A stretch of 33,468 bases of DNA from Ruminococcus sp. Lineage in GTDB: Bacteria > Bacillota > Clostridia > Oscillospirales > Acutalibacteraceae. Below are positions 11,333 to 24,750 of this stretch, in pieces. Made by a program: the position numbers and the translations under genes. The stretch is taken from positions 1-33,468 of the forward strand of contig JAFRDE010000046.1 in assembly GCA_017403985.1 (NCBI GenBank). Direction: 5' to 3'. The notes under the pieces are model-generated. The model did not search any database. It was given only the letters and a program-made list of their open reading frames with translations, and had not been told where the DNA came from. Position 1 is the stretch's first letter. Every line of letters begins with the position of its first letter.

Positions 11333-11806
11333 TCAATATTTGTCTGCAAAAGCTTTGAGCTTTTTCTCGTTGGGATTGCCGTTGAGGATCACGCCCGCGA
11401 TGATCTCGGCGTTCGGTGCAGAGGGCTGTAACGATGCGACAGCCTTGCCGAAGCCGGAGCCGCCGGAGGTGGCAAACAGTACGATCTTTTTGCCGCTGAA
11501 ATCGTAGGCTTCGAGGAAGGTGTTGATGATGGTCGGCGCGATATACCACCAGATCGGGAAGCCGATGAAGATCGTATCATAAGCGGCGATATCCGCGTCT
11601 GTATCGGCGAGCGCGGGACGCGAGCTTTTGTCGCGCATCTCAACCGAGCTTCTTGACTGTTTATCCATCCAGTTCAGGTCTGCCCTGCTGTACGGCACGG
11701 CAGGCTTTATTTCATAGATGTCCGCGCCTGCGGCTGCCGCCAGATTTTCGGCGACTCTCGCGGTGGTACCGCTCGCGGAAAAGTAGGCTACTAACTTTTT
11801 ACTCAT
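11333..11806 (-). CDS. Cytosolic flavodoxin (Flavodoxin_4 type)
   Basis: Small FMN protein for low-potential electron transfer or quinone/aldehyde redox chemistry. The 157-aa product has no signal peptide. The N-terminal phosphate-binding loop [10 protein letters not shown] sits at about 10-19, and the family segments IFIGFPIWW and [11 protein letters not shown] contact the flavin. I place the start at ATG 11806 (MSKKLVAYF), which has AAGGAG 8 bases upstream; the in-frame GTG at 11815 overlaps that ribosome site. It is the last gene of the first TetR-led operon, 12 bases after the hydrolase gene. The protein differs from the flavodoxin at 17546-18019 at only six of 157 positions, while the DNA differs at many silent sites. 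Confidence 0.9.
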
Positions 11807-11818
11807 ATGATTCACTCC

Positions 11819-12748
11819 TTAAGTGTTTTTGTAAAGATATTCCAATCCATAGTTGACGGCGGTCTCAAAGTCCTCGCCGCCGAAGCCGTGTCCCGAACCC
11901 TCGATCACATAGTATTCGCAGTTCGGGAATAATGTTGACGCCTCCTCGGAATAATACGCGGGGACCAGAGTATCCTCGGAGCCCTGAATAATGATCACAT
12001 TTCCGGGAAAGTCGCCGAGCCTGCTGACGACGTCGACGTCGTACAGATCACGGGCGAACTGTCCGCTGAGTTCATAGTCCTCTCCGAAGGAGATCGTATC
12101 GGGGATGCTGTCAGGATCGTCATACCAGCTCGTGATGATCTGCGGCATATAGAGCGCCGGGTAATGCAGGATCATCCCCTTGACCTTATCGGTGTTGTCG
12201 AGACCGACCATAGCGGCTTCCAAACCGCCCTGACTGCCGCCCTCGAGGAATACGCGATCGGTATCGACAAAGTCCCATGTCAGCGCCGTATCGAGGACAG
12301 CCTGCAGATCCGCCGCCTCGGTGACGGGCGTCATCTTCATCTGATCGCCGTCGCTCTTGTTCTCAGTCGTCGGGCGGCTTCCTCCCGGAAAGTCAAAGCT
12401 GTATCCGGCAAAGCCTTTTTCGGCATAACGCTTGCAATACGCCTCCCCCGCCTCGTGATTGGAACCCATGCCGTGGGCGTGGATCACCAAGGGAAACTTT
12501 TCAACGCCCTCAACGACGGGGATATACGCTTCGCCGTAGATACGGTTGCCGTTGTTCTCGCACCAAATCTCACGTGTCTCATATTCATACACCGCGTTTT
12601 TATCGGGTGTAAAACGAGCGGACGTGCTCTCTTCGGCTGCGGCAGTTGCGCTGTCAGTCGCTGCGCTTTCGGGGGCGTTCTGTACAGAGGAACACCCGGT
12701 TATCGCAAACAGCGATACGATCAATAATATGCACCATAGTTTTTTCAT
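11819..12748 (-). CDS. Alpha/beta-hydrolase lipoprotein
   Basis: A 309-aa serine hydrolase anchored outside the membrane. The signal peptide MKKLWCILLIVSLFAITGC carries a lipobox with lipidated C19, followed by a Ser/Ala/Thr-rich linker to about residue 45. The fold shows an oxyanion segment HAHGMGSNH (90-98) and the nucleophile elbow GGSQGG with S172. The likely acid is D259 in GSEDTLVP and the base H287 in GSGHGFG. It resembles dienelactone hydrolase/acyl-peptidase-like esterases; the substrate is unknown. It lies 36 bases after the alcohol dehydrogenase gene in the same operon. A surface esterase releasing alcohols, acids or aldehydes would fit the dehydrogenase beside it, but that link is inference. 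Confidence 0.85.
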   Translation of the reverse strand: MKKLWCILLIVSLFAITGCSSVQNAPESAATDSATAAAEESTSARFTPDKNAVYEYETREIWCENNGNRIYGEAYIPVVEGVEKFPLVIHAHGMGSNHEAGEAYCKRYAEKGFAGYSFDFPGGSRPTTENKSDGDQMKMTPVTEAADLQAVLDTALTWDFVDTDRVFLEGGSQGGLEAAMVGLDNTDKVKGMILHYPALYMPQIITSWYDDPDSIPDTISFGEDYELSGQFARDLYDVDVVSRLGDFPGNVIIIQGSEDTLVPAYYSEEASTLFPNCEYYVIEGSGHGFGGEDFETAVNYGLEYLYKNT

Positions 12749-12784
12749 ATATGATCTCCCTGTAGATGAGTAATTCGAATAGTA

Positions 12785-13951
12785 TTACAGGCTCTTTTTC
12801 AATACGGCGACGACGTCGTCGCGGGTGAATACCTTATAGCCGCCGTCGAGGATGATAGTCGCGTCGGCGATGGCTTCGATCATATCCTCGGTCACGCCGA
12901 GCTCGCTCAGATTCATGGCGACGCCGATCTTTCTCATCCAGCTCTCGAGAGCTTTTAAGCCTTCGCTGGCGATTGTTTCCTCGGTCTTGCCTGCGGGATC
13001 AACGCCCCAGACATTGACGGCAAAGCGGACAAACTTTTTCAGCCCGTAAGGCATGATAGTTCTGTAATACGGCAGAGATACCGCCGCCAGCGTCATGCCG
13101 TGGGTCGCGTCGGTGATCGCGCCGACCGCCTGACCGAGCATATGCACCATCCAGTCGGTGGTCTTGCCGCGCGAGATCAGGGTGTTCAGCGCCCATGTAG
13201 CAGACCACATGATGTTGGAGCGGGCTTCATAATCCTCGGGATCCTCCACCGCGATCAGCGAGCTGTGGATGACGGATTTCATCAGCGCCTCGGCGATATA
13301 GTCGGAGGTGTTGTCGTCCTCGCCGGAGAAGTACTGCTCGCAGATATGGTTGAAGATATCGTAGATGCCCGATACCATCTGGCGCTTGGGCAGGGACATG
13401 GTGAACTTCGGATTGAGGATAGAGAACTTCGGCATGACCTCTTCACCGAAGACATGGCCGATCTTCAGCTTCTGCTCATGGTTGGTGATGACGGAGCCCG
13501 CGTTCATCTCGGAGCCGGTACCTGCCATGGTCAGGATACAGCCAACGGGGATGATGGCGCAGTCGGGCTCCTCAAAACGGATGTAGTACTTCTCCCACGG
13601 ATCGTCGTCACAGTTGACGGATACGGATACCGCCTTGGCGTAGTCACAGCAGGAGCCGCCGCCTACCGCAAGGAGGAAGTCGACATGGTTTTCGCGTGCG
13701 AGCTTTACGCCCTCGCGCAGCTTGTCGGCGGTCGGGTTGGGCATCACGCCCGCGTCCTCGACGATGGTCTTGCCGTTCGCCTTGAGGATATCTACAACAG
13801 CGTCATAGATACCGTTTTTCTTGATCGAACCGCCGCCGTAGATGAGCTGTACGGTCTTGCCGTACTTCGGCAGTTCGTCGTTCAGATACTTCAGAGAATC
13901 GTCTCCGAAATAGAGTTTTGTCGCGTTTTTGTAGCTGAAATTACCTAACAT
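12785..13951 (-). CDS. YqhD/BDH-like iron-containing alcohol dehydrogenase
   Basis: A 388-aa group III alcohol dehydrogenase, predicted to reduce aldehydes to alcohols with NAD(P)H in the cytoplasm. The cofactor-binding GGGS motifs are at 39-42 and 97-100 (AVGGGSCCDYAKAV). The four metal ligands align with those of E. coli YqhD: D198 and H202 (IYDIFNHICEQYF), H270 (DWMVHMLGQ) and H284 (DATHG). The fold is complete and of family length. The start ATG 13951 has AAAGGAG 8 bases upstream and follows the lipoprotein flavodoxin by 13 bases. In E. coli, YqhD works with the aldo-keto reductase DkgA in aldehyde detoxification. A DkgA-like protein is encoded at 22994 here, supporting an aldehyde-stress reading. 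Butanol dehydrogenase activity is the main alternative. Confidence 0.92.
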   Translation of the reverse strand: MLGNFSYKNATKLYFGDDSLKYLNDELPKYGKTVQLIYGGGSIKKNGIYDAVVDILKANGKTIVEDAGVMPNPTADKLREGVKLARENHVDFLLAVGGGSCCDYAKAVSVSVNCDDDPWEKYYIRFEEPDCAIIPVGCILTMAGTGSEMNAGSVITNHEQKLKIGHVFGEEVMPKFSILNPKFTMSLPKRQMVSGIYDIFNHICEQYFSGEDDNTSDYIAEALMKSVIHSSLIAVEDPEDYEARSNIMWSATWALNTLISRGKTTDWMVHMLGQAVGAITDATHGMTLAAVSLPYYRTIMPYGLKKFVRFAVNVWGVDPAGKTEETIASEGLKALESWMRKIGVAMNLSELGVTEDMIEAIADATIILDGGYKVFTRDDVVAVLKKSL

Positions 13952-13964: not shown

Positions 13965-14609
13965 TTAGTTTAATGTATCGATCCAGTTTGTGATCTCTTC
14001 TTTTGATGAGTCGGCGGCAAAGCGTTTGCCTTCCTTCCAGTTTGCATCGGGCGCGAGAGCCTTTAGATCGGCTGCGCTGACGTCGATGTCCGAGCTGCCC
14101 GAGGTGCAGAACGGGATCACCGTCTTGTCGGTGAAGTCATAGCTTTCGACAAAGGTATCCATGATGCGCGGCTCCTGACCCCACCAGATGGGATAGCCGA
14201 TGAAGACGGTATCATAGCCGTCAAGGTTTATTGTTTCACTGCCGATCACGGGGCGGACGGACTTATCGTTCTGTTCGACCGTAGCGCGGCCGCTGTCGTC
14301 GTGCCAGTTCAAGTCATCTTCGGAATACGGCTGTGCCGGAACGATCTCATAGAGATCCGCGTCTGCGGCAGCGGCGATCTGTTCCGCAACACCTTTGGTA
14401 TTGCCGGTCGCGGAGAAATAGACAACAAGGGGCTTTTCGCTGAGGGAATCGTCGCCTGCGGGTACATCCGCGGCTGTTTCATCGGACTGTGTTTCGGGTT
14501 GTGCGGCCGTTTCTTTTTCGGCAGCCGTTTCAATGTTGTTGTTTGACGAACACCCAACGAATGCCAAGGTCAACGCGATAACGGTCAGCAGTATAATCAG
14601 TTTTTTCAT
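13965..14609 (-). CDS. Flavodoxin lipoprotein
   Basis: A flavodoxin-fold FMN protein predicted to sit on the outer face of the membrane. The 214-aa precursor has a lipoprotein signal (LTLAFVGC, lipidated C20). A Glu/Thr/Ala-rich spacer follows to about residue 58, then a flavodoxin domain with phosphate loop SATGNTKGVA and the segments VFIGYPIWWG and IPFCTSGSSDI. The domain closely resembles that of the lipoprotein at 18726 and, less closely, the cytosolic flavodoxin at 11333. It is the first structural gene after the TetR gene, 25 bases downstream. Extracytoplasmic flavodoxins need an electron donor; none is encoded in this operon, so the membrane protein at 18012 is a candidate partner. That is inference. 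Confidence 0.9.
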   Translation of the reverse strand: MKKLIILLTVIALTLAFVGCSSNNNIETAAEKETAAQPETQSDETAADVPAGDDSLSEKPLVVYFSATGNTKGVAEQIAAAADADLYEIVPAQPYSEDDLNWHDDSGRATVEQNDKSVRPVIGSETINLDGYDTVFIGYPIWWGQEPRIMDTFVESYDFTDKTVIPFCTSGSSDIDVSAADLKALAPDANWKEGKRFAADSSKEEITNWIDTLN

Positions 14610-14634: not shown

Positions 14635-15255
14635 TTACGGCAAGACTTTTATCAGACAATGATACGCCATATCGAATATGGTGGTCTCGGCGTGCGGCAC
14701 ATCGGCGAGCTTCATCGCTTCAATCTGTTTTTCGGTGTGATAGACAAAGGGATACACGCCGAACAGAAATGCATTGAAATTCATACAGAAGCGTTCGATC
14801 TCTTCCGCTGTGCTTTGCGGGCTGTATGCTCCGGCGATCCGCGTCAGCGTTTCCACCACGGTGCGGTACAGCACCTTGAACTCCGCGAGCCGCTCCACAC
14901 GGCAATTGAGCTCCATCTCGAATAGGTTCATATTCTGGATGCGCAGGAGGATCTCTCTGTTGTCCAGCGTATGCGCGATCAAAGCGGCAGTATTCTCCCT
15001 GTCGCCCTGTTCGATCTGCTTTTCTGCTTCTTGTAAAGACGCGATCCATTTCATATATTCACGGTTCAACAGAGCGAGCAGGATCTCGTCCTTTGTCTCA
15101 AAGTAGGAGTAGATCGCGGGGCGGGTAAAACTGGTGGCTGTGCTGATCTCTTTGATGTTGACGGCGGTAAAGCCTTTTTCTCTGTATATCTTCTCGCAGG
15201 CGTCGATGATCTCCTGCTTTCGATTCTCTTTATGTTCTTCGGTAACTTTCGGCAT
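14635..15255 (-). CDS. TetR-family transcriptional regulator, first copy
   Basis: A 206-aa repressor-type protein. The helix-turn-helix spans about 25-50, with the recognition region TSFTRPAIYSYFETK; the rest is an all-helical ligand-binding domain. I prefer ATG 15255 (MPKVTEEHKENRKQ), which has AGAAGG 8 bases upstream; a GTG nine bases earlier lies beside the ribosome site. With this start it has the same length as the second TetR (21399-22019), and their recognition helices are nearly the same. It heads the operon running to 11333. The promoter just upstream carries a 13-bp inverted repeat, so autoregulation and control of the operon are likely. The ligand is unknown; aldehydes or other electrophiles are plausible from the gene set. 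Confidence 0.9.
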   Translation of the reverse strand: MPKVTEEHKENRKQEIIDACEKIYREKGFTAVNIKEISTATSFTRPAIYSYFETKDEILLALLNREYMKWIASLQEAEKQIEQGDRENTAALIAHTLDNREILLRIQNMNLFEMELNCRVERLAEFKVLYRTVVETLTRIAGAYSPQSTAEEIERFCMNFNAFLFGVYPFVYHTEKQIEAMKLADVPHAETTIFDMAYHCLIKVLP

Positions 15256-15307
15256 ATGATACACCTTCTTTTGCTTCTTAATGACGGCGGTAACGATATT
15301 TATAATT

Positions 15308-15351
15308 ACACCGTGTAAATATTATATATCATATAATTTACACGGTGTCAA
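15308..15351 (-). promoter_or_regulatory. TetR operator overlapping the promoter of the first redox operon
   Basis: ACACCGTGTAAAT (15308-15320) and ATTTACACGGTGT (15336-15348) form a perfect 13-bp inverted repeat with a 15-base spacer. On the minus strand TTGACA (plus 15346-15351) overlaps the distal arm. TATATA (15323-15328, spacing 17) or TATAAT (15321-15326, spacing 19) provides the -10. Repressor binding would block both. The core ACACSGTGT also makes up the operator at 22040-22094. Confidence 0.8.
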
Positions 15352-15378: not shown

Positions 15379-16446
15379 TTATCGAAAGACCTTTGACAGG
15401 AAGTTATAGTAGCACTGTCCCCAGAATTCGGTGTTGTGACCGTAGCCTTCGACATAATCCGTCTGATTCTTCACGCCCATATTATTCAGCGTGTCGCGGT
15501 ACAGCAGGGTACAGTCGATACACCACGGATCCTCGCTGCCGACTGCCATATACAGATAATACGGCGTTTTGCTTTCGTTCGGCTGAGGGAATTCCTGCAT
15601 ATAGGGGTCCGTCCAGTAGCTTTCCCATTCGCCGCTGCCGGTGGGGATCACGTTCGCGTCGGGAGCGAAGCCGCCGATCCAGCCGAATTCATCGAGCCAT
15701 TTGAAACCGATGCACAGCGACTTTGCGCCTCCCTCGGATACGCCCGCGACCGCGGTATCCTTTCTCTCGGTGCTGACGGGATAGTGCTGCTCCATAAACG
15801 GCATCAGGTCGATCTTGATCTCGTCGATGCATTTATCATAGATATAACGAAGCTCCTCATAGCTTTTGCTGTCCTTATCGGCGAGCTTGTCGGTATACAT
15901 ATCGATCCCGACGAGGATCATCGGCACGGTAAGCCCCTGATCGAGCATATTGCCGTAGAGCAGGGTCAGATAGGTATCGCTGCCGACGTGCGCGTTGTGA
16001 TCGGCGTCGAAACCGTGTACCACATACATCACCGGATAGGTTTGATTCTCGTCATAGCCTGCGGGCAGCAGGACATTGACCTGTTTATTGTCGCCCGCGA
16101 CCGTAGAGTAATAGGTGACGTCCTTGTCGAGCCTGCCGTAATCGACGTTGCTGTATCTCTCGAACATAGAGGCAGGGACGTCGTACCGGTTCTCTGTCGC
16201 GTAGGGATCAAAAGACATGCTTTCGGTCGCCGGTTCACTTTTATTCCCGCCTTCGGATACGGTTGGTGAAGCTGTTTCAACTGCTGTTGTTTGTGATACT
16301 GCGTTTTCCGTTGAGGGCAGTCTGCTTTCGGCAACGGCTGTATCACCGGTCGCTGTTTCGGCGGGTTCCTTATCCGTGCATGCGCTCAATGTAAGGATAC
16401 AGAATATCTGGATGATGTATAAGAGAATAATTATCCCTTTTTTCAT
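15379..16446 (-). CDS. Esterase lipoprotein (esterase D / CE1-like)
   Basis: A 355-aa surface-anchored serine esterase. The lipoprotein signal ends LTLSAC (C23). A long Thr/Ser/Glu-rich linker to about residue 85 precedes an alpha/beta-hydrolase domain of the Esterase family that includes feruloyl and acetyl-xylan esterases. The likely triad is S237 in AGVSEGG, D306 in GSEDPW and H337 in GYGHNTEFW; VVHGFDADHN (142-151) gives the oxyanion region. AAAGGAGG precedes ATG 16446. It stands between the tRNA-like repeats and the TetR gene and is probably transcribed separately, since the TetR promoter follows its stop. It may release acyl or aromatic groups from plant polymers, but the substrate is unproven. 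Confidence 0.85.
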   Translation of the reverse strand: MKKGIIILLYIIQIFCILTLSACTDKEPAETATGDTAVAESRLPSTENAVSQTTAVETASPTVSEGGNKSEPATESMSFDPYATENRYDVPASMFERYSNVDYGRLDKDVTYYSTVAGDNKQVNVLLPAGYDENQTYPVMYVVHGFDADHNAHVGSDTYLTLLYGNMLDQGLTVPMILVGIDMYTDKLADKDSKSYEELRYIYDKCIDEIKIDLMPFMEQHYPVSTERKDTAVAGVSEGGAKSLCIGFKWLDEFGWIGGFAPDANVIPTGSGEWESYWTDPYMQEFPQPNESKTPYYLYMAVGSEDPWCIDCTLLYRDTLNNMGVKNQTDYVEGYGHNTEFWGQCYYNFLSKVFR

Positions 16447-16802: not shown

Positions 16803-16882
16803 CCCCTTTTCTCCGCTGTACAGTATAAAAATGATAGAGCCATCATAAAGATAACTCTATCTTTTTCTTGGTGGAGATAAGG
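16803..16882. repeat. Inverted-repeat unit A with tRNA-3'-end-like arm
   Basis: The left part CCCCTTTTCTCCGCTG matches 17035-17050 of unit B with one change. The right part TGGTGGAGATAAGG (16869-16882) is identical to 17101-17114. Between them is a short stem-loop (16833-16861). The right part, read on the minus strand, is a tRNA 3' end (CCTTATCTCCACCA) including CCA. The downstream stretch to about 16960 also shares AGTCACGC..TACGC with unit B. Confidence 0.55.
16833..16861 (-). terminator. Weak stem-loop terminator within unit A
   Basis: GATAGAG (16833-16839) pairs with CTCTATC (16855-16861). On the minus strand the stem is followed by ATTTTTATAC. It sits in the same place within unit A as the long hairpin does in unit B. 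Confidence 0.45.
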
Positions 16883-16961
16883 TATGTTTTACCTGTAGGA
16901 AGTAAATTACCCCGTCTTGGGAGCGACACCTCCTGACAAAAGTCACGCCTACGCTCTCGCT

Positions 16962-16986
16962 AAATCTGCCATACTATGGCAGATTT
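16962..16986. repeat. Perfect 12-bp palindrome AAATCTGCCATA / TATGGCAGATTT
   Basis: The two arms 16962-16973 and 16975-16986 are separated by a single C. The structure stands alone in the non-coding stretch 16645-17205, between the two tRNA-like units. It could be a protein-binding dyad or an RNA hairpin; there is no T-run, so it is a poor terminator. Confidence 0.6.
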
Positions 16987-17027
16987 GTCAGCGCCGTGCG
17001 CGCGGCTTACGGCTTGACACGCTCGCC

Positions 17028-17123
17028 TTCGATTCCCCTTTTCTCCACTGTTCGGTATAAATGACATTAGGGAGTACCGTTTGGTACTCCCTAATGTCAC
17101 TGGTGGAGATAAGGGGAATCGAA
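17028..17123. repeat. Inverted-repeat unit B flanking a long hairpin
   Basis: The arms 17028-17048 and 17103-17123 are inverted copies matching at 20 of 21 bases (right arm GTGGAGATAAGGGGAATCGA...). They surround the perfect hairpin 17062-17099. Both arms look like tRNA 3' halves: T-loop TTCGATT, CCCCT, then an acceptor strand. The right arm belongs to the tRNA-Ala-like sequence on the minus strand; the left is an isolated piece on the plus strand. It is related to unit A. Confidence 0.65.
17062..17099 (-). terminator. Strong hairpin, likely terminator of the second TetR operon
   Basis: A perfect 17-bp stem (17062-17078 with 17083-17099; GGTACTCCCTAATGTCA) with loop GTTT. On the minus strand it follows the last gene of the operon (17206-17532) and the tRNA-like sequence, and is followed by TTTATACC. 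The long perfect stem makes termination or RNA 3'-end protection likely. Confidence 0.65.
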
Positions 17124-17181
17124 CCCCTGACCTCTTGAATGCGAACCACGCGCTCTCCCGAGTCACGCGCTTACGCACCCC
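17101..17181 (-). pseudogene. Degenerate tRNA-Ala(CGC)-like sequence
   Basis: The 3' two-thirds is a good tRNA. The anticodon loop TTCGCAT gives anticodon CGC (alanine), the anticodon stem closes, and the T-arm is AGGGG-TTCGATT-CCCCT. The 3' acceptor strand TATCTCC is followed by ACCA, and U70 would fit the alanine G3:U70 identity pair. The 5' part is wrong: GGGGTGC pairs with the acceptor 3' strand only at the first four positions, and no normal D-arm can be drawn. The 5' part instead shares AGTCACGC..TACGC with unit A. A pseudo-tRNA left by rearrangement or integration at a tRNA 3' end is the best reading; a working tRNA is unlikely. Confidence 0.6.
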
Positions 17182-17205: not shown

Positions 17206-17532
17206 TTAATCTGTCCAAATGTCTTTTGCCAATCGGAATACTGCCCATCCTTTAGGCCAGCCGACGTACATCGTGGCATGGGTAATGATCGCGGCTATCT
17301 CTTTCTTCGTGACGCCGTGGTTCTTCGCATTTAACAAATGATAGCTGAGGGAGGAATCTGTGATTCCCGAAGCCATAAGCGAAACGACTGTGATGATGCA
17401 CTTGGTCTTGACGTCGATTGCCTCCTCATTCCACACCTCGCCGAACAATATATCGTCGTTGAGGTGGGCAAACATCGGCGCAAATTCGCCAAGCTGATCT
17501 CTGCCTGCTGTTTGCTTGATTTTTTCTGCCAT
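17206..17532 (-). CDS. Carboxymuconolactone decarboxylase-like protein
   Basis: A 108-aa all-helical protein of the CMD/AhpD-like fold, single domain and of full family length. The typical core is KTKCIITVVSLM (42-53), LSYHLLNAKNHGVTKKEI (62-79) and ITHATMYVGWPKGW (83-96). It has a single conserved Cys (C45) and His residues 65, 72 and 85, but not the CxxC pair of AhpD peroxidases, so a peroxidase role is doubtful. Small CMD proteins often accompany flavodoxin and aldo-keto reductase genes in Clostridia; their reaction is usually unknown. It is the last gene of the second TetR operon, with GGAGG before the ATG, 13 bases after the flavodoxin stop. Confidence 0.85.
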   Translation of the reverse strand: MAEKIKQTAGRDQLGEFAPMFAHLNDDILFGEVWNEEAIDVKTKCIITVVSLMASGITDSSLSYHLLNAKNHGVTKKEIAAIITHATMYVGWPKGWAVFRLAKDIWTD

Positions 17533-17545: not shown

Positions 17546-18019
17546 TCAATACTTGTCTGCGAATGCCTTTAATTTCTTCTCGTTCGGATTGCCGTTGAGA
17601 ATTTCGCCTGCGATGATCTGCGCGTTTGGTGCGGATGGCTGTAAGCTCTGCACGGCTTTGCCGAAGCCCGAACCGCCGGAGGTAGCGAACAGAACGATCT
17701 TTTTGCCGCTGAAATCATACGCCTCTAAGAACGTATTGATGATCGTCGGTGCGATGTACCACCAGATCGGGAAACCGATGAAAATCGTATCATAGGCGGC
17801 AATATTTGCGTCGGTATCGGCTAATGCAGGGCGGGAGTTTTTATCTCTCATTTCAACCGAACTTCTCGACTGCTTATCCATCCAGTTGAGATCGGCTCTG
17901 CTGTATGGTACTGCCGGCTTGATCTCATATATATCCGCACCTGCGGCAGCTGCAAGATTCTTCGCAACTCTCGCGGTCGTACCGCTTGCTGAAAAATAGG
18001 CGACTAATTTTTTACTCAT
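17546..18019 (-). CDS. Cytosolic flavodoxin, near-identical paralogue
   Basis: A 157-aa FMN protein without a signal peptide, phosphate loop [10 protein letters not shown]. It matches the flavodoxin at 11333-11806 at 151 of 157 residues. The substitutions are all outside the FMN loop, for example AENL to AKNL and AEIIAGVIL to AQIIAGEIL. At DNA level many third positions differ, and this copy is more AT-rich, so it is not a fresh duplication. Its first 8 bases overlap the end of the DUF4405 membrane protein gene, with AAAGGAG inside that gene. The coupling suggests the two proteins work together, for example as a cytosolic electron donor for the membrane protein; that is inference. Confidence 0.92.
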   Translation of the reverse strand: MSKKLVAYFSASGTTARVAKNLAAAAGADIYEIKPAVPYSRADLNWMDKQSRSSVEMRDKNSRPALADTDANIAAYDTIFIGFPIWWYIAPTIINTFLEAYDFSGKKIVLFATSGGSGFGKAVQSLQPSAPNAQIIAGEILNGNPNEKKLKAFADKY

Positions 18020-18692
18020 GATGATCTTCTCCTTTATGCTTTTTCTTTGCCCCTGCTTTCAGCATCATAGACAGAAGGTACGAGAGAAACGCCCATGCGA
18101 GCAACATAGAAAGGTTTTCTGCTAAGACGACCCAAGCAGGTCTGGAGTAATCCAAGAATGCAAAGTGTGTTTTCATCAACAGGTAATCTGCGATATTCAA
18201 TTTCATTAAAAGCCAAAATCCGTAGAGGGATATCCCGCTCATAAGGATATGAACGATGATTCGCACTGCTTTGTTTCTGAACTTTGATAACATCAGGTTG
18301 AGGTGTAGTCCGATGTGCAATCCCATCAGGACAAACGACCAATATGACAGCATCAAATGCAGCTTGCGAGGCCAGACTACTCCGACAACACCGCTGAGGA
18401 ACGGGGTCGCGTACCGGCTCATCAGCATTCCGGTGATTGGCGTTGCGACAAAGCTGAGCAGCAGCGCGGTATTCACGATCAGCATAAATACCCTGACCGG
18501 CGTATACTTGCCCTTGAAGATGGAAATATAGTATTTTCGGTTGAGAATATGGTGCGCGATGACGAGGACGAACATCCCGATACCGATATATTCGTGCAGC
18601 TGTTGCTGTGTGACCTGCATCGCCATGAGCAGCAGCAAAGCCGCTGTCATCAGGATGTCGATCGAACGCATTATTATCTTCTTCGTTTTCAT
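18012..18692 (-). CDS. DUF4405-type integral membrane protein, possible b-type cytochrome
   Basis: A 226-aa protein with about six predicted transmembrane helices (roughly 8-26, 33-50, 66-90, 112-132, 145-163, 188-210). Histidines H33, H47 and H48 lie at helices 1-2, H112, H126 and H130 on helix 4, and H148 on helix 5. The spacing (HEYIGIGMFVLVIAHH; LHLMLSYWSFVLMGLHIGLH) is what a bis-heme four-helix core would need. The C-terminus is Lys/His-rich and probably cytosolic. DUF4405 proteins have no proven function. Its position between a lipoprotein flavodoxin and a cytosolic flavodoxin suggests electron transfer across the membrane. Heme binding is inferred from histidine placement only. Confidence 0.8.
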   Translation of the reverse strand: MKTKKIIMRSIDILMTAALLLLMAMQVTQQQLHEYIGIGMFVLVIAHHILNRKYYISIFKGKYTPVRVFMLIVNTALLLSFVATPITGMLMSRYATPFLSGVVGVVWPRKLHLMLSYWSFVLMGLHIGLHLNLMLSKFRNKAVRIIVHILMSGISLYGFWLLMKLNIADYLLMKTHFAFLDYSRPAWVVLAENLSMLLAWAFLSYLLSMMLKAGAKKKHKGEDHHE

Positions 18693-18725: not shown

Positions 18726-19382
18726 TTACTTACTATCGAGCCAGCTTTGAAGCTCTGTATCGGAGATTCCGGCATCAAGGCGGTCGCCGCTTTTCCAATT
18801 ACCTGAACCCGCGTTGATTTTCAGGTTATCCCCACTGCTGCCGATTCCGGAACCTCCGGAGGTACAGAACGGGATGACCGTCTTGCCGGTGAAGTCATAG
18901 CTCTCGACAAAGGTATCCATAATGCGCGGTTCCTCTCCCCACCAAATCGGGAAGCCGAGATAGATCGTGCTGTAACCGTCAAGAGATATCTTCTCGCTTC
19001 CGATCTCCGGACGTATGGTTTTATCATTCTGCTCTATGGTACTGCGGCTGTTGCTGTCGTTCCAATTCAGATCGTCAGAGGAATACGGCTGTGCAGGGAC
19101 GATCTCGTATAAATCTGCATTTTCGAGTGAGGCGATTTTTTCGGCAACGCCTTTCGTCGTTCCTGTCGCAGAGAAATACGCTACCAACACCTTTGAAGTA
19201 CCGCTTGTGGTTTCTCCGGTTCCGGAACCGGCGGCTTGCTTGTCCGTTTCCTGAACAGCTGATTTTTCATTGGTATTCGCTGCTGTTGTCTCAGCTGTTT
19301 TTGTGTTACCGCCGCAAGCCGCAAGGCTCAAAATGAGAAGCAAAGCAAGAGTCAATGCAAAAATTGATTTGATTCTTTTCAT
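18726..19382 (-). CDS. Flavodoxin lipoprotein
   Basis: A 218-aa precursor with lipoprotein signal ILSLAAC (C23), a Thr/Glu/Ser-rich spacer to about residue 63 and a flavodoxin domain. The phosphate loop is SATGTTKGVA, and IYLGFPIWWG and IPFCTSGGSGIG mark the flavin site. The central part, from DLYEIVPAQPYS to RIMDTFVESYDFTGKTVIPF, is largely shared with the lipoprotein at 13965, so the two operons each carry one such protein. It follows the aldo-keto reductase gene by 12 bases and precedes the DUF4405 gene by 33. An extracytoplasmic electron carrier or quinone/ferric reductase component is likely; the partner is not proven. Confidence 0.9.
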   Translation of the reverse strand: MKRIKSIFALTLALLLILSLAACGGNTKTAETTAANTNEKSAVQETDKQAAGSGTGETTSGTSKVLVAYFSATGTTKGVAEKIASLENADLYEIVPAQPYSSDDLNWNDSNSRSTIEQNDKTIRPEIGSEKISLDGYSTIYLGFPIWWGEEPRIMDTFVESYDFTGKTVIPFCTSGGSGIGSSGDNLKINAGSGNWKSGDRLDAGISDTELQSWLDSK

Positions 19383-19394: not shown

Positions 19395-20444
19395 TTATAC
19401 ATTCTTGATCTTCTGATCGCCGGTTGACCAAACGTGCTTCTTCCCGGCGTCGGAAGGCTTATTCTGCGCCATAACGCCCGCGAGAAGATGAGGAACATAA
19501 GGCTCTTCCAGATATGACAGTTCTTCATCCGTCAGCTCTAAATCAACTGACTTTGCCGCACCCTCGATATGGTGCAGCTTTGTAGCGCCGACTACGGGTG
19601 AAGTTACCTTTGTTAAAAGCCACGCAAGGGAAATCTCCGTCATGGTCACGCCGTGTTTTTCGGCAAGCTCGGCAACACGGGCAATAATGATGTTGTCCTG
19701 TTCTGCGGTCGCGTCATATTTGAACTTTGCGTAGGCGTCCTCTGACGCTCTTTTTGTATTGTCCACACCCGGCTTTCGTGAAAGTCTGCCGCTTGCAAGA
19801 GCGCTATATGGCGTGAGAGCAATGTTTTCCTCCTCACAGAAAGGAACCATTTCACGCTCTTCCTCGCGGAAGATCAGGTTATAGTGTCCCTGAACGGATA
19901 CAAATTTGGCAAAGCCTTCTTTTTCGGCAAATGCGTTTGCTTTGGCGAGCTGCCATGCAAAGCAGTTAGAGATGCCGATGTATCGTGCTTTTCCTGCTTT
20001 GACCACACGATTCAGACCGTCCATAATATCCTCAATAGGCGTTTGCCAATCCCACATATGATAGATATACAGATCCACATAGTCCATACCGAGATTGCTT
20101 AGACTTGTGTTGAGCATATTCTCAATATGCTGCTGACCGCTGATACCTTTTTCAATTTCATCAGGTGTGCGCGGCAGGAACTTCGTTGCAACAACCACCT
20201 CGTCACGCTTTGCAAAATCACGCAAAGCGCGGCCGAGATACTGCTCGCTGGTGCCGCTCTGGTAGGCGATGGCGGTATCGTAGAAGCTCACGCCGAGATC
20301 GAGTCCTCTTTTGATGATCTCACGCGTATGTTCCTCGTCGATCGTCCAGCTATGCTGACCGCGCGCTGAATCTCCAAAACCCATACATCCCATACAAATT
20401 CGGGAAACATTCAAATCTGAATTGCCGAGTTTCGTATATTTCAT
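19395..20444 (-). CDS. Aldo-keto reductase, YghZ/IolS-like
   Basis: A 349-aa NAD(P)H-dependent oxidoreductase of the AKR superfamily, (beta/alpha)8 barrel, cytosolic. The catalytic tetrad is complete: D56 (YDTAIAY), Y61, K88 (VATKF) and H129 (YIYHMWDW). The GISN segment and the VQGHYNLI strand are typical. The C-terminal cofactor region (SPVVGATKLHHIEGAAKS) is present. It reduces aldehydes or ketones; the natural substrate is unknown. It follows the other AKR gene with a one-base gap, so the two are co-translated in the TetR operon. Having two different AKRs plus flavodoxins suggests several electrophilic substrates are handled at once. Confidence 0.9.
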   Translation of the reverse strand: MKYTKLGNSDLNVSRICMGCMGFGDSARGQHSWTIDEEHTREIIKRGLDLGVSFYDTAIAYQSGTSEQYLGRALRDFAKRDEVVVATKFLPRTPDEIEKGISGQQHIENMLNTSLSNLGMDYVDLYIYHMWDWQTPIEDIMDGLNRVVKAGKARYIGISNCFAWQLAKANAFAEKEGFAKFVSVQGHYNLIFREEEREMVPFCEEENIALTPYSALASGRLSRKPGVDNTKRASEDAYAKFKYDATAEQDNIIIARVAELAEKHGVTMTEISLAWLLTKVTSPVVGATKLHHIEGAAKSVDLELTDEELSYLEEPYVPHLLAGVMAQNKPSDAGKKHVWSTGDQKIKNV

Positions 20445-20445: not shown

Positions 20446-21384
20446 TTATTTCATTTCCTTTTCCCAGAACCGGATGACGTTGAGTTCAAGGCTGTCCGCA
20501 ACCTTCTCCAGTTCTGCAACTTCTTCTGCCGTTAGAGCGATATTTGCAGCCTTGACCGCGTCCTCGACCTGATTTTCCTTTGTCACGCCGATGATCGGCA
20601 GGGTTCCTTTTGCGATAGCCCAAGCAACAGGGATCTGAGCAGTGCCGACACTGTATTTGTCCGCGAGCTTTTTCAGTTCGGCGTTCATTACTTCGAGCTT
20701 ATCGAGTACAGGGTTATAGGTTTCTGCTCTTGCCGAGCCTGCGGGCATCGGGTGAGCGGTATCGTATTTGCCGGAGAGAGCGCCCTGCTCCAATACCATA
20801 TAGGCGAAGAAATGAATGTCATTCTCTTTGCAATAGTCAAGGATTCCGGAATCCTCTGATGAACGGTTGATCAGGCTGTAGTGGTTCTGTACCGCGCCGA
20901 GCTTCAGACCGTGCGCTTTCAGGATTTCATCCGCCTGCTTGATTTCGGCAAGGTTGTGGTTGGACACGCCGATGATCGGCACATTTTCCTTGCCCTCAAA
21001 GTACTTCGCAAGTTCCTCTGTCCACTTCGGAGCGCCCCAAACGTTATGGATCCAATAGACATCGAAACGGTCAAGCTCCATTAACCCGAGCTGCATTTCA
21101 ATCATATCTTTCATAGCGGTCGGCGATGACGCGTCCGCACACTGCGGCGTGAATTTGTCGGATATGAGATAGCTTTCTCTCGGCAGGTCTTTAATGAATC
21201 CCGCGAGCACCTTCTCCGAAGTGCCCATACCGTAGGCAAAGGCAGTGTCCCAAAGGTTCAAGCCGTTCTTCATAGCAGTATCAAATATCGGGCGAAGCTG
21301 CTCAGCTGTAAAGTTGTTTCCGAATGTTCCGTCGTTGCCCCAAGCCCACGCGCCAAGAGCGATTTTAGGTAAGTTTTTCATCAT
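20446..21384 (-). CDS. Aldo-keto reductase, second type
   Basis: A 312-aa AKR with catalytic residues D46 (WDTAFAY), Y51, K77 (SDKF) and H113 (YWIHNVWG), and a C-terminal cofactor loop TLPIIGVTKENQVEDA. It differs clearly from the neighbouring AKR. The frame extends upstream to 21423 into the TetR gene, but GGAG followed 6 bases later by ATG ATG at 21384/21381 marks the real start (MMKNLPKIAL), 14 bases after the TetR stop. It is the first structural gene after the TetR regulator, so it is the one most directly controlled. Its likely role is NAD(P)H-dependent carbonyl reduction in the cytoplasm. Confidence 0.9.
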   Translation of the reverse strand: MMKNLPKIALGAWAWGNDGTFGNNFTAEQLRPIFDTAMKNGLNLWDTAFAYGMGTSEKVLAGFIKDLPRESYLISDKFTPQCADASSPTAMKDMIEMQLGLMELDRFDVYWIHNVWGAPKWTEELAKYFEGKENVPIIGVSNHNLAEIKQADEILKAHGLKLGAVQNHYSLINRSSEDSGILDYCKENDIHFFAYMVLEQGALSGKYDTAHPMPAGSARAETYNPVLDKLEVMNAELKKLADKYSVGTAQIPVAWAIAKGTLPIIGVTKENQVEDAVKAANIALTAEEVAELEKVADSLELNVIRFWEKEMK

Positions 21385-21398
21385 TAATTTCTCCATTC

Positions 21399-22019
21399 TT
21401 ATTTGAGTAATTTTAATATACAATTATATGTCAGTTCATAGACCGAATAATAAGTGTAGCCGATACCCGCTTCTTTCATTGCATTCTTTTGTTTGTCTGT
21501 CACCATTGCGTATGGATAGATCCCGAACATGAACGGGAAGAATGTGTATATAAAGCTCTTGATCGCTTCATCATCCATCTGCGGACAGTATTTGTTCAGT
21601 AGCTCGGCAACAAGCTCCATTGATCTGCCGTAAGCCTTTTTAAAGGATATAAGCAGTTCCGGGCGGCTGTTAGCTTCCATATCAAAGTTATTCATCGAAA
21701 GCAGCTTGAGAAGCTGAACGCGATCAGCTAACGATCGTGCCAGCTTTCCGGAGAGCTCTGCTCTTGACAAGCTGTCGTTATCATTCAAGATGATTTCAAG
21801 CGCTTCGTTCCAGCGGCGGTATTCGCGCTCATATAACGCAAGAAAAATTTCTTCCTTCGTTTCAAAATAGTTGTAGATCGTCGGACGCGAGAAAGAGGTG
21901 ATGTTTCCGATCTCCTTGATCGTGACGTCCTTGAAGCTCATTTTTTGATAGAGCGTTTCACAAGCGTTGATGATCTCCTCGCGCCTCTGCGAGATCAACT
22001 CAGGCGTTCCTTTTATCAT
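21399..22019 (-). CDS. TetR-family transcriptional regulator, second copy
   Basis: A 206-aa regulator with helix-turn-helix at about 24-50; the recognition segment TSFSRPTIYNYFETK nearly equals that of the TetR at 14635 (TSFTRPAIYSYFETK). The downstream helical domain is divergent in sequence but the same in length and layout, with EREYRRW matching NREYMKW, and a shared YP(Y/F)..VTDKQ/HTEKQ-type end. ATG 22019 has AGAAGGG upstream. It leads the operon 21399-17206. Its own promoter lies inside two 19-bp palindromic arms. The two regulators are paralogues and may bind each other's operators, so the operons may be cross-regulated. The inducer is unknown. Confidence 0.92.
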   Translation of the reverse strand: MIKGTPELISQRREEIINACETLYQKMSFKDVTIKEIGNITSFSRPTIYNYFETKEEIFLALYEREYRRWNEALEIILNDNDSLSRAELSGKLARSLADRVQLLKLLSMNNFDMEANSRPELLISFKKAYGRSMELVAELLNKYCPQMDDEAIKSFIYTFFPFMFGIYPYAMVTDKQKNAMKEAGIGYTYYSVYELTYNCILKLLK

Positions 22020-22039: not shown

Positions 22040-22094
22040 TATTGACACGGTGTCAGTATAACCATTATACATCATTACTGACACCGTGTCAATA
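22040..22094 (-). promoter_or_regulatory. Perfect 19-bp inverted-repeat operator over a consensus promoter
   Basis: TATTGACACGGTGTCAGTA (22040-22058) and TACTGACACCGTGTCAATA (22076-22094) are exact inverted copies, each containing the palindrome TGACAC-S-GTGTCA. On the minus strand TTGACA (plus 22087-22092) and TATAAT (plus 22064-22069) are exactly 17 bases apart, a perfect sigma-A promoter for the TetR operon. The distal arm covers the -35 and the proximal arm the transcription start, an arrangement for tight repression. The plus strand also has TTGACA (22042-22047) with TTATAC 17 bases on. Confidence 0.88.
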
Positions 22095-22303: not shown

Positions 22304-22981
22304 TCACGAATGAGAATTAAGCCATTCGGTGACTATTGATTTGACACTTTCAGGATCGTTCTGCGCGTCGGTTCCGGCGATGGCGAGAACCTCTTTGACG
22401 GTTGCGTTTGGTGCGGCGGACTGGATTTTGCTCTGTGTTCCGGCGTTGCCTGAGCCTGCGTGTGTGCAGAACGGGATGATTGTCTTTCCGCTGAAATCGT
22501 AGCTTTCAAGGAAGGTGTAGCAGATCATCGGCAGATCTCCCCACCAAATCGGATAGCCAAGGTAGATGGTATCATATTGGTCGAAGTTCGCAATAGTGTC
22601 CTTGATTTCGGGACGGGCATTATTGTTTTGCTCTTCCTTTGCAACGTCGGTCAGCTCCTTATAAGTCGTCGGATAGTTGTCCTCCTTGGGCAGTATCTCA
22701 AAACTGTCAGCGCCTGTTTGCTCAGCGATCATATCCGCAACGATAGCAGTGTTGCCCTTCTCTATCACACCGACTTCATATTGTTCCCCTGTGCGTGAAA
22801 AGAAAACAACAAGCGATTTGTTGTCAGTCGTAGTTTTACTGCTATCCGCTTTTGTCTCATTCGTTTGGAGTGTAGATTTTTCGGCAGAAGTCGTACTCTC
22901 TGTCGTGTTATTATTTGTAGAACAACCCGCAAAAGCTAAAATGATCGACAAGACCATCAGTATAGAAATTACTCTTTTCAA
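22304..22981 (-). CDS. Flavodoxin lipoprotein, inserted-loop subtype
   Basis: A 225-aa precursor with signal peptide and lipobox LAFAGC (C20), then a Thr/Ser/Lys-rich spacer to about residue 55. The flavodoxin domain (about 57-225) has its FMN loop interrupted: FFSRTGEQYEVGVIEKGNTA replaces the compact SATGNTKGVA form. YLGYPIWWGDLP and IPFCTHAGSGNAGT are the other flavin segments. The same inserted-loop form occurs in the cytosolic flavodoxin at 24229, so each subtype exists in both a membrane-anchored and a cytosolic form. It is the last gene of the LysR-divergent operon, 12 bases after the aldo-keto reductase. Function as an extracytoplasmic electron carrier is inferred. Confidence 0.9.
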   Translation of the reverse strand: MKRVISILMVLSIILAFAGCSTNNNTTESTTSAEKSTLQTNETKADSSKTTTDNKSLVVFFSRTGEQYEVGVIEKGNTAIVADMIAEQTGADSFEILPKEDNYPTTYKELTDVAKEEQNNNARPEIKDTIANFDQYDTIYLGYPIWWGDLPMICYTFLESYDFSGKTIIPFCTHAGSGNAGTQSKIQSAAPNATVKEVLAIAGTDAQNDPESVKSIVTEWLNSHS

Positions 22982-22993
22982 AACAATCCTCCG

Positions 22994-23836
22994 TTACGCT
23001 TTTTCATATGCAGGACTCCAAACGGCAAATTGCTCCAGCTGTTCATCTGTGCGGTAATAGTATCGCTTGCCCTTGTCGAGCTTCGCAATTTTAGCCATCT
23101 CCTCGTCTGTCAGAGAGAAGTCTAAGATATCGAGATTATCCCTGATGTGATTTACATTTTTACTGCCGGGGATTACGGCAAAGCCCATTTGTGTATGCCA
23201 GCGCAGAATCACCTGAGCCGGTGATTTGCGGTACTTTTTGCCGAGTGCAGTAAAAACAGGCTCTTCCATAAGGCTCTTGTCGCCGTGTCCCAACGGATAC
23301 CAGCTCATCAAACGGATACCGTATTGATCAAGCGTGTTCCTAAGTTCCTTTTGAGTGAAATACGGATGCGCTTCCATCTGAACAAACTGCGGTATGATCT
23401 CCCACTTGTTCTGCAATTCATCAATGTATTTACCCTCGAAGTTTGAAATGCCTATCGCTTTAGCCTTGCCTTCTTTATACGCCTTTTCAAGCTGACGGTA
23501 GCCTGCAAGCCAGTTGCCTGCCGGCTGATGGATATAAAGCAGGTCGACATATTCAACGCCTAAACGCGCTAAGGTTTCATTGACCGCATCCGGATTTTCG
23601 TACTCCGTCGGCCAGAGCTTTGTTGAAAGAAAAATATCCTCGCGTTTTACACCGCTGTCTTTCATACCGCGTCCGACAGCGCGCTCGTTCACATAAACAT
23701 TAGCCGTGTCAATCAGCCGACAACCCATTTTCAGAGCTTCTCTGACGATGTTTTCCGCATCGGAAGGAGCGAGCAAATAGGTTCCGATTCCCGTGACCGG
23801 GCATTTTTGTCCGTTGTTTAATGTTAAATAATCCAT
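22994..23836 (-). CDS. Aldo-keto reductase, DkgA-like (2,5-diketogluconate reductase family)
   Basis: A 280-aa single-domain AKR of the AKR5 type. The tetrad is D43 (LIDTANVY), Y48, K73 (STKLWP) and H103 (YIHQP). GISNFEGKYIDEL, QMEAHPYF and VIPGSKNVNHIRDN are family signatures; the last binds the NADPH phosphate. E. coli relatives reduce methylglyoxal and diketo sugars. The gene begins 2 bases after the NTF2-like gene ends. It may act with the YqhD-like dehydrogenase at 12785, as DkgA and YqhD do in E. coli, although here the two are in separate operons. Confidence 0.92.
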   Translation of the reverse strand: MDYLTLNNGQKCPVTGIGTYLLAPSDAENIVREALKMGCRLIDTANVYVNERAVGRGMKDSGVKREDIFLSTKLWPTEYENPDAVNETLARLGVEYVDLLYIHQPAGNWLAGYRQLEKAYKEGKAKAIGISNFEGKYIDELQNKWEIIPQFVQMEAHPYFTQKELRNTLDQYGIRLMSWYPLGHGDKSLMEEPVFTALGKKYRKSPAQVILRWHTQMGFAVIPGSKNVNHIRDNLDILDFSLTDEEMAKIAKLDKGKRYYYRTDEQLEQFAVWSPAYEKA

Positions 23837-23838
23837 TA

Positions 23839-24216
23839 TTATCCTCCTTGGTATGTTGAAGCCTTAGAGCTTGTCAATTCCCAATTTCCGTTTTCTTTTC
23901 GCAGTGTAAAATCTCCCTGCAAATGCCATAAATGCTTTGAGCCGCCGTATACAGCCGCCGTTACACGGCTTCTCCCGGTCATCACTGCCGTATCTCCGTT
24001 TATCAGGACATCTATCGCGTCGTGTTCGGCAGAATAATAGTTGAAGGTTCCGTCAAGCAAACCTTTGATAAAGGTTTCTTTTGACTGCCTAACGCCTGTC
24101 ATATGCAACAAATAATAATCATCAGCCAAAAGACCTTTCAAACCTTTTTTATCTTTGTTGATCATATATGTCCAATAGCGGCGGTAAAGCTCTTTGATTT
24201 GGTATGATTCATCCAT
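23839..24216 (-). CDS. NTF2-like / SnoaL-fold protein
   Basis: A protein of 125 aa from the preferred start, with the cone-shaped NTF2-like fold seen in DUF4440/SnoaL proteins. An N-terminal helix (IKELYRRYWTYMINKDKKGLKGLLADDYYL) leads into a beta-sheet with HLWHLQGDFTLRKENGNWEL near the end. Such proteins bind small hydrophobic ligands or act as isomerases or dehydratases; no catalytic residues can be assigned. I chose ATG 24216 (MDESYQIKEL) with GAGGTG 6 bases upstream; a GTG at 24225 overlaps the ribosome site. It lies between a flavodoxin gene and an aldo-keto reductase gene with gaps of 12 and 2 bases. Confidence 0.82.
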   Translation of the reverse strand: MDESYQIKELYRRYWTYMINKDKKGLKGLLADDYYLLHMTGVRQSKETFIKGLLDGTFNYYSAEHDAIDVLINGDTAVMTGRSRVTAAVYGGSKHLWHLQGDFTLRKENGNWELTSSKASTYQGG

Positions 24217-24228
24217 CTCACTCACCTC

Positions 24229-24750
24229 TTACATCAGACCGTTGGCAGCCAGCCAACGATATACGCTATTTTTACAACCGTTGGCATTGCTTCCGGTTAT
24301 CGGAAGTCCCTTCTTCACGGTTGCGCCCTTCGCCAGCTTTTCGATGTCACGCTCGCTTTTGCCCATTCCGCTGCCTTCGTTGGTGCAAAGCGGAAGAATC
24401 GTTTTGCCGCTGAAATCATAGCGCTCCAAAAAGGTAAAAACAGCCATCGGCATCGTACCCCAGAAATTGGGATAAGCGAGAATGATCGTATCATAACTGT
24501 CAAGGCTGTCGGGATAAGCCTTCAACTCCGGACGCGCGTTATTGCGCAGATCCTTCTTTGCCTCATCAATGCAGGTCATATAGACGGGTGAGTACGGCTC
24601 ATTCATCTCGATTTTGAAGCTGTCGGCAACAATCATTTCTTTGATGATATCGCATACGATCTCGGTGTTGCCGACCTTCACATAACGCATTGCTCCGCCA
24701 AAGTAGTTTTCATCCGCTCTCGAAAAGAAAGCGATCAATGTTTTTGCCAT
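24229..24750 (-). CDS. Cytosolic flavodoxin, inserted-loop subtype
   Basis: A 173-aa flavodoxin with no signal peptide. The FMN loop is enlarged (FFSRADENYFGGAMRYVKVG then NTEIV), like that of the lipoprotein at 22304. Other family segments are ILAYPNFWGTMPMAVFTF and LPLCTNEGSGMGKS. It is the first gene of the operon running to 22304 and is divergent from the LysR gene at 24866, which is its probable regulator. Flavodoxin-like oxidoreductases under LysR control are often part of oxidative or quinone stress responses, but the inducer here is unknown. Confidence 0.9.
   Translation of the reverse strand: MAKTLIAFFSRADENYFGGAMRYVKVGNTEIVCDIIKEMIVADSFKIEMNEPYSPVYMTCIDEAKKDLRNNARPELKAYPDSLDSYDTIILAYPNFWGTMPMAVFTFLERYDFSGKTILPLCTNEGSGMGKSERDIEKLAKGATVKKGLPITGSNANGCKNSVYRWLAANGLM

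Follow-up and report, generated by a model that had tools for sequence, protein, structure and literature searches.

Organization of the Flavodoxin Island

The window analysed here is a stretch of 33,468 nucleotides from Ruminococcus sp. (assembly GCA_017403985.1, contig JAFRDE010000046.1; contig C54 of genome G000 in our labels), and the subject of this study is an island of six flavodoxin-fold genes encoded within 13.4 kb on its minus strand (11333-24750). An earlier note on the window had placed the six genes there, and all of them were matched by the Flavodoxin_4 family (PF12682) with scores of 67 to 236 bits, above the curated Pfam cut-off of 24 bits. Three carried a lipoprotein signal (lpFldA, lpFldB and lpFldC) and three did not (FldA, FldB and FldC). 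Ten Flavodoxin_4 matches were found genome-wide, six of them in the island; the solved Flavodoxin_4 proteins 3KLB, 4ICI and 4J8P belong to the same domain family by sequence. Three minus-strand operons were distinguished by gene spacing (Table 1), with the orders TetR1-lpFldA-FeADH-hydrolase-FldA (operon 1), TetR2-AKR2-AKR1-lpFldB-DUF4405-FldB-CMD (operon 2) and FldC-NTF2-AKR3-lpFldC (operon 3). The accompanying genes named in the earlier note, namely three aldo-keto reductases (AKRs), a YqhD-type iron-containing alcohol dehydrogenase (FeADH), DUF4405, CMD and NTF2-like proteins, two TetR regulators and one LysR regulator, were matched by Pfam or NCBIfam models, but two lipoprotein alpha/beta-hydrolases, at 11819-12748 and 15379-16446, had been overlooked. 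With a probability of about 0.5, the island is read as an inducible reductive regulon controlled by thiol-bearing TetR regulators, in which carbonyl reductases would be combined with a relay running from a cytosolic flavodoxin through a heme b cytochrome to a lipoprotein flavodoxin.

Table 1. Features of the flavodoxin island, in window positions
Feature	Position	Strand	Evidence
FldA, Flavodoxin_4 without export signal, last gene of operon 1	11333..11815	-	Pfam PF12682, 234.6 bits
Lipoprotein alpha/beta hydrolase	11819..12748	-	Pfam Abhydrolase_1; lipobox ITGC
YqhD-like iron-containing alcohol dehydrogenase	12785..13951	-	NCBIfam PRK15138, 262.7 bits (cut-off 645); PDB 7w9x, 1vlj, 1oj7 (YqhD)
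lpFldA, lipoprotein Flavodoxin_4	13965..14609	-	Pfam; lipobox FVGC; short phosphate loop SATGNTKG
TetR1 (TetR_C_34), first gene of operon 1	14635..15264	-	Pfam; invariant Cys pair
Putative TetR operator, proximal copy, upstream of TetR1	15306..15318	.	Motif match
Putative TetR operator, distal copy, 32 bp from proximal copy	15338..15350	.	Motif match
Lipoprotein esterase	15379..16446	-	Pfam PF00756
CMD-family protein, last gene of operon 2	17206..17532	-	Pfam; TIGR02425, 52.7 bits (cut-off 155.7)
FldB, Flavodoxin_4 without export signal	17546..18019	-	Pfam; 8-bp overlap with DUF4405 gene
DUF4405, predicted multi-transmembrane b-type cytochrome	18012..18692	-	Pfam; invariant His residues
lpFldB, lipoprotein Flavodoxin_4	18726..19382	-	Pfam; lipobox LAAC
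AKR1, aldo-keto reductase	19395..20444	-	Pfam; closest solved structure IolS
AKR2, aldo-keto reductase	20446..21423	-	Pfam; IolS among solved structures
TetR2 (TetR_C_34), first gene of operon 2	21399..22019	-	Pfam; invariant Cys pair
Putative TetR operator, proximal copy at TetR2, 8 bp downstream of -10	22043..22055	.
Promoter TTGACA-17-TATAAT, 12/12 match	22064..22092	-	Consensus match only
Putative TetR operator, distal copy at TetR2, overlapping -35, 36 bp from proximal copy	22079..22091	.
lpFldC, lipoprotein Flavodoxin_4, beta1-alpha1 insertion without flavinylation motif	22304..22981	-	Pfam
AKR3, DkgA-like	22994..23836	-	PRK11565, 219.2 bits (cut-off 425); PDB
NTF2-like (DUF4440) protein	23839..24225	-	Pfam
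FldC, Flavodoxin_4 without export signal, beta1-alpha1 insertion	24229..24750	-	Pfam
LysR-type box ATTGCAAAGTCCAAT, between FldC and LysR	24799..24813	.	Identical in window, L042 and L014
LysR regulator, divergent from operon 3	24866..25753	+	76% identical homologues at the same place in L014 and L042

FldA and FldB had been described as near-identical, which was true of the proteins (96% identity) but less so of the DNA (81%). The synonymous divergence (dS) was about 2.3 and the nonsynonymous divergence (dN) 0.038. Synonymous change was thus near saturation, and the two genes are therefore old paralogues under strong purifying selection; a recent duplication was ruled out by the same dS. The identity was 54-57% between lpFldA and lpFldB and 45% between lpFldC and FldC.

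In comparisons with models and structures, FeADH most resembled the YqhD type and AKR3 most resembled DkgA; among solved structures, AKR1 and AKR2 were nearest to IolS. The kinship with YqhD and DkgA that the earlier note had drawn on was supported at the level of type, but not at that of orthologues, as both scores fell under the equivalog cut-offs (Table 1) and the proteins are relatives only. The reductase set supports a predicted capacity for carbonyl reduction in general, with no particular substrate. In relatives, AKRs with a lipoprotein signal were seen alone (L044:7274-8290) or fused behind a lipoprotein flavodoxin (L029:4285-5775 and L095:14991-16457). Two AKR1-flavodoxin fusions (L023 and L078) were set aside, since the AKR was cut near residue 236-251; in L023 the cut was followed by a complete lipoprotein signal, and deletion or assembly joints are therefore likely.

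The lipoprotein esterase had weak similarity to feruloyl esterases (44 bits against a cut-off of 1200). This similarity would suit a catabolic or respiratory role, in which esterases free plant phenolics or similar compounds, AKR, CMD, cupin and amidohydrolase proteins transform them, and a chain of DUF4405 and lipoprotein flavodoxins dumps the electrons outside; amidohydrolase_2, CMD-cupin and flavin reductase genes in the clusters of relatives, and the rumen or gut origin of many named relatives, point the same way. Such a role is considered quite improbable. A dedicated terminal reductase was not found in the island, the CMD and esterase scores were far under the NCBIfam cut-offs, and the invariant cysteines of the TetR regulators (see below) would suit stress sensing better than a nutrient ligand.

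Conservation in Related Genomes

Conservation was followed in 60 genomes of the genus, own genome included, and in 80 named loci; collected loci of both kinds are labelled L, genus genomes G and contigs C. Genes were taken from a simple greedy open reading frame (ORF) caller, by which some were missed, for example in L013. The two locus collections overlap, and their 120 loci fell into 102 groups by shared 60-mers, which were used only for the relaxed-site operator counts. Five duplicate or grouped loci (L025, L049, L050, L065 and L079) were dropped from the TetR cysteine rows, leaving n = 31; all other counts keep duplicates.

Flavodoxin_4 was present in 37 of the 60 genus genomes. The genes around it formed a kit, consisting of TetR, AKR1, AKR2, FeADH, CMD, cupin, DUF4405, esterase and both flavodoxin kinds, the order and completeness of which varied. 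The conserved neighbourhood that had been predicted for related genomes was found, with kit genes concentrated beyond chance within 2 kb of Flavodoxin_4. In 39 genus loci from other genomes, 67/197 ORFs within 2 kb belonged to the kit versus 3/94 at 4-7 kb; in the named loci, the values were 101/372 and 4/175, respectively. Parallel flavodoxins inside and outside the cell had also been proposed, and flavodoxins with and without an export signal co-occurred in 19 of 40 genus loci and in 27 of the 80 named loci. The regulon occurred in named loci of Lachnospiraceae, Oscillospiraceae, Monoglobus, Anaerostipes and Selenomonas.

DUF4405 was found in 18 of the 37 Flavodoxin_4-positive genus genomes versus none of the 23 negative ones, and for 15 of its 20 genus copies a Flavodoxin_4 match was no more than about 3 kb away. 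Two further copies, in operons of DUF4405-esterase (L145) and AKR2-DUF4405 (L147), had an operator pair directly upstream of the operon and no Flavodoxin_4 near. DUF4405 was rare in a class-wide sample (6 of 118 genomes, own included). Among seven copies outside the genus, four (L137-L140) were accompanied by a lipoprotein Flavodoxin_4, and one (L143) by TetR-AKR1-CMD and an operator pair. The other two (L141, on a 3.5-kb contig, and L142) had no kit neighbours, and the L142 DUF4405 frame was not recovered by the profile. In L140, a 14.5-kb stretch contained six flavodoxin-fold genes, including one read as another flavodoxin type; hence, multi-flavodoxin islands recur.

A second, smaller island was observed in the own genome (L026, contig C16:18000-35000). 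Preceded by the same twin operator, it encoded TetR, FeADH, DUF4405, a cupin, an esterase and two flavodoxins, one of which had a clear lipobox.

Predicted TetR Operators and the Island Regulators

The palindrome TGACACNGTGTCA, or a close variant, occurred in two copies upstream of both TetR1 and TetR2, and at TetR2 the pair covered the -35 element and the stretch just past the -10 element of a promoter match. With up to two mismatches, the window contained six matches, where 0.89 would be expected; four were at the two TetR genes and two elsewhere. The strict form (TKACACNGTGTMA) occurred eight times in the 2.68-Mb genome, and its reversed control did not occur. Four of these sites were in the island, two before the TetR gene of the C16 island and two inside other genes; six of the eight thus stood in twos, as twin pairs, before three TetR/flavodoxin operons. 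The matches inside genes, on contigs C15 and C62, were taken as chance.

In the genus, 24 exact sites were found in 15 genomes, all of which were Flavodoxin_4-positive, and 22 of the sites were upstream of kit genes (one of the two others was on G044:C206). The genes behind the 22 sites were TetR, AKR1, AKR2, CMD-cupin, flavin reductase, DUF4405-esterase and an amidohydrolase with DUF4405 and flavodoxin; the esterase homologue of L145 followed DUF4405 under a TGACACNGTGTCA-type operator, and the operator stood directly before a flavin reductase gene in eight distinct loci. A site with up to one mismatch was present in 23 of 35 TetR upstream regions versus 0.06% of Markov-simulated sequences. 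In the 102 non-redundant loci, 66 relaxed sites were counted versus one reversed-control site in 1.46 Mb. Relaxed sites were present in 25 of 28 loci with TetR versus 9 of 74 others, and 19 of 25 close operator pairs had a spacing of 36 bp. All these counts from the TetR upstream regions and the 102 loci are descriptive only because the motif was first found in these regions. An operator-like site was not found in L138, L139 or L140, and L137 had one degenerate site; the operator therefore does not extend to these loci. In relatives, Amidohydrolase_2 genes were seen beside operator sites (L152:8483-9145 and L098:2-535), hinting at decarboxylation or aromatic chemistry.

TetR1 and TetR2 shared 40% identity. 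Two cysteines (C20 and C200 of TetR2) were present in 31/31 TetR rows chosen by similarity to TetR1 or TetR2, and the pair would be compatible with thiol-based sensing of electrophiles or of the redox state, of the kind known from NemR (PMC5297802). The response to electrophiles proposed in the earlier note would be served by such a pair. A TetR gene at the head of an operon with reductases, with a palindromic putative operator at the promoter, resembles the arrangement of NemR. The two TetR operons are apparently under one shared switch. Operon 3 had no TetR operator and instead a LysR-type box, ATTGCAAAGTCCAAT; sharing of the TetR operator by the LysR operon was rejected, as the sole match had two mismatches and was inside a gene. 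A joint response, which had been expected of all three operons, is therefore indicated for two operons only.

These operators also bear on a gathering of paralogues by duplication and horizontal transfer, without any joint function. The old paralogues lying side by side, the recombinase beside LysR and the tRNA-like remnants that separate the CMD and esterase genes would agree with such an origin. It is nevertheless very unlikely, given the twin operators common to two operons and the gene kits kept across families.

The Predicted DUF4405 Cytochrome and Flavin Attachment

DUF4405 had a weak match to cytochrome b561, and a link between the two families has been noted (PMC5898192). His 33, 47, 112, 126 and 130 were invariant in 17/17 DUF4405 rows, two of which are duplicate contigs and one of which (L055, Treponema) looks frame-broken in the ORF caller. 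A distance of 14 residues separates H33 from H47 and likewise H112 from H126. These histidines are candidate heme ligands, and the island protein is predicted to bind heme b; the purified DUF4405 protein of an Oscillospiraceae bacterium is reported to do so in vitro (Huang 2024, PMC11334425). The lpFldB gene, encoding an exported Flavodoxin_4, adjoins DUF4405. In three genomes, DUF4405, an FGE-like domain and Flavodoxin_4 formed one protein (L079, on the same contig as L012; L092; L100). Seven hydrophobic segments with an alternating charge pattern predicted the flavodoxin of the L092 and L079 fusions to be outside; for the L100 fusion and DUF4405 alone, helices were over-split by the simple predictor and the topology was less clear. 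MqnA and MenD had no match in the genome, and a quinol donor is therefore less likely than a cytosolic flavoprotein.

These results can be set against purely cytosolic detoxification of electrophiles and carbonyls, in which the AKRs and YqhD would be the working enzymes, the flavodoxins would be soluble partners of quinone or nitro reductases and the DUF4405 and lipoprotein copies would be passengers. The enzyme set resembles YqhD/DkgA, and 52 of the 80 named loci had only non-exported copies, a count affected by many short contigs and by a search anchored on that copy. In spite of this, the cytosolic alternative is judged somewhat unlikely. The DUF4405 and lipoprotein flavodoxin genes share operons with the rest of the set and are found together again in further families of this class, fusions of DUF4405 with flavodoxin exist, and operators stand directly before the Flavodoxin_4-free DUF4405 operons of L145 and L147. 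A relay across the membrane as part of the reductive regulon is preferred.

The attachment of flavin was assessed from the flavinylation motif, which was scanned in the window, L009-L128, L134, L135 and L137-L152. The motif was absent from the beta1-alpha1 region of all six island flavodoxins in a relaxed scan; the phosphate loop was of the ordinary short kind in four, and two had an insertion without the motif. A motif-like insertion was found in 8 of 221 Flavodoxin_4 domains, including the DUF4405 neighbours in L137-L139. A first scan ([ST]G[AS][ST]) had suggested that the collected loci held no flavinylation sites, and this result was withdrawn because the pattern was too narrow. One of the ten Flavodoxin_4 proteins of the genome was of the flavinylation type (L134:928-1638, contig C21, motif-like DAVSTAT) and unlinked to the island. 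The apbE gene was not found in the window or in L009-L128, and the best ApbE match of the genome was on contig C45; in the relative L137, ApbE was about 6 kb from DUF4405. With neither the motif nor ApbE nearby, the island is therefore taken as a variant of the systems of Huang et al. (2024), and its exported flavodoxins probably hold flavin mononucleotide (FMN) non-covalently.

Other flavodoxins carried a fused copper amine oxidase N-terminal domain or a cyclophilin-like one, and some followed a bacterial Ig-like stretch scoring below the Pfam cut-off. The scan with a twin-arginine translocation (Tat) expression caught two Flavodoxin_4 rows (L034 and L123). A further candidate for a Tat-exported flavodoxin (L111:7912-8601, Selenomonas ruminis) was rejected as an FMN_red family protein; it had a Tat-like, lipobox-bearing N-terminus and was near a Flavodoxin_4 gene.

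Proposed Mechanism

We infer repressor binding, heme and FMN binding in the island, the direction of electron flow, the inducer and the substrates from the genes, the shared operators, the conserved histidines and cysteines, the missing flavinylation motif and the cytochrome-flavodoxin fusions of relatives. The two thiol-bearing TetR_C_34 repressors would be bound at the promoters of their own operons, on the twin TGACACNGTGTCA operators, and would be released by an electrophile or redox signal read by the two invariant cysteines. In the cytosol, NAD(P)H would be used by the AKRs and the YqhD-like dehydrogenase for the reduction of reactive carbonyls. At the same time, electrons would pass from reduced cytosolic FldB to the DUF4405 b-type cytochrome, which would deliver them to lipoprotein flavodoxins with non-covalent FMN on the outer side of the membrane, where they would serve extracellular reductions. 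The LysR-linked operon 3 may contribute a related inside/outside pair. In a bolder version, the regulon would be an envelope defence of a new class, in which an electrophile-sensing TetR controls a heme-wired transmembrane flavodoxin relay, with the same fold on both sides and non-covalent FMN, that feeds exported reductases including AKRs; this version is speculative and unlikely.

Several observations weigh against the proposed mechanism. The weakest link is ferrochelatase, for which no match was found in the genome, and heme would therefore be taken up or made by another route. A flavin reductase was not among the island genes, and the exported AKRs of relatives have no known NADPH supply outside the cell. 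The role proposed for flavinylation in keeping the flavin of exported flavodoxins (PMC11334425) speaks against a simple explanation of how unflavinylated exported ones would retain FMN. Three of the 20 genus copies of DUF4405 had neither Flavodoxin_4 nor an operator nearby (G022:C55, G057:C118 and G046:C17), the latter two being on contigs of less than 5 kb. As regards regulation, the reversed control gave eight sites in the 60 genus genomes, so that the exact pattern also arises by chance; the operator was absent or degenerate at the four DUF4405/Flavodoxin_4 loci outside the genus (L137-L140); the third operon is regulated apart from the two TetR operons; and the cysteine count has no control set from other TetR families.

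Neighbouring Features

The gap between CMD and the esterase (16860-17180) contained remnants resembling the 3' half of a tRNA (T-arm and acceptor, by eye), adjoined by a shorter partial copy, and no intact tRNA was reported there by ARAGORN; the remnants are possibly a recombination site. Beside the LysR gene, a mobile element abutted the island (26040-29233; TnpV, a DUF5131 protein and a large serine recombinase). It was followed by a YhcG-type PDDEXK nuclease and a STAND-NTPase/TPR protein (29691-33162), possibly defence cargo. On the other side, a MobA-like protein, a three-subunit molybdenum hydroxylase and a selenium-dependent xanthine dehydrogenase (TIGR03311, above cut-off) were encoded at 4159-11201, a stretch ending about 130 bp from FldA. 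The closest solved structure to the xanthine dehydrogenase was an aldehyde oxidoreductase. The enzyme was also near Flavodoxin_4 genes in L013, L016 and L023, and was kept out of the explanation because, in the scanned loci, it was found in only three other genomes.

Comparison with Known Systems and Implications

Clusters of DUF4405, apbE and flavinylated Flavodoxin_4 with covalent flavin were described by Huang et al. (2024, mSystems; PMC11334425), where DUF4405 cytochromes are tied to flavinylation by ApbE and related to ferrosome proteins, and where exported flavodoxins are held to be flavinylated so as to keep their flavin. The island shares with these systems a DUF4405 gene beside an exported Flavodoxin_4, in Firmicutes. 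Unlike them, it has no flavinylation motif in its six flavodoxins and no ApbE found nearby, and it adds non-exported flavodoxins, AKRs, a YqhD-like dehydrogenase and a TetR operator. The best reading is an unflavinylated variant of the DUF4405/Flavodoxin_4/ApbE systems. The view that no such arrangement had been described thus does not hold for DUF4405 and Flavodoxin_4 clusters, but no description of this gene set, regulon or TetR operator was found in the literature searched, which yielded a Rhodococcus genome paper and a review on nitroaromatics, and the TGACACNGTGTCA operator appears to be new here. Related papers concern flavinylation (PMC8238504 and PMC9973259) and the reduction of nitroaromatics (PMC8395237).

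The YqhC-YqhD/DkgA and NemR-NemA-GloA systems of Escherichia coli are electrophile responses, and NemR is a TetR-family regulator that senses electrophiles via cysteine oxidation (PMC5297802). The island resembles them in joining YqhD-type and DkgA-type reductases and in using a TetR-family regulator, and differs in its six flavodoxins and membrane cytochrome. An AraC-type YqhC is adjacent in the E. coli system, whereas the regulators here are two TetR_C_34 proteins and a LysR. In MsrQ/PepSY-type systems, a multi-helix b-type cytochrome is proposed to serve exported redox partners (PMC11334425); the island partner is a flavodoxin, and no MsrP-type enzyme was among the annotated genes of the island.

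DUF4405 here accompanies unflavinylated exported flavodoxins, non-exported flavodoxins and carbonyl reductases, together with a TetR operator that is shared and predictable, and the TGACACNGTGTCA operator provides a genome-wide handle on the regulon. If the exported-AKR fusions are real, it has to be asked how these enzymes would be powered outside the cell. If the envelope defence were true, toxic carbonyls or quinones would be reduced before cell entry, in a bacterium in which the MqnA/MenD pathway was not detected. The operator makes it directly testable by what route electrons could leave a fermenter in which no menaquinone pathway was detected.

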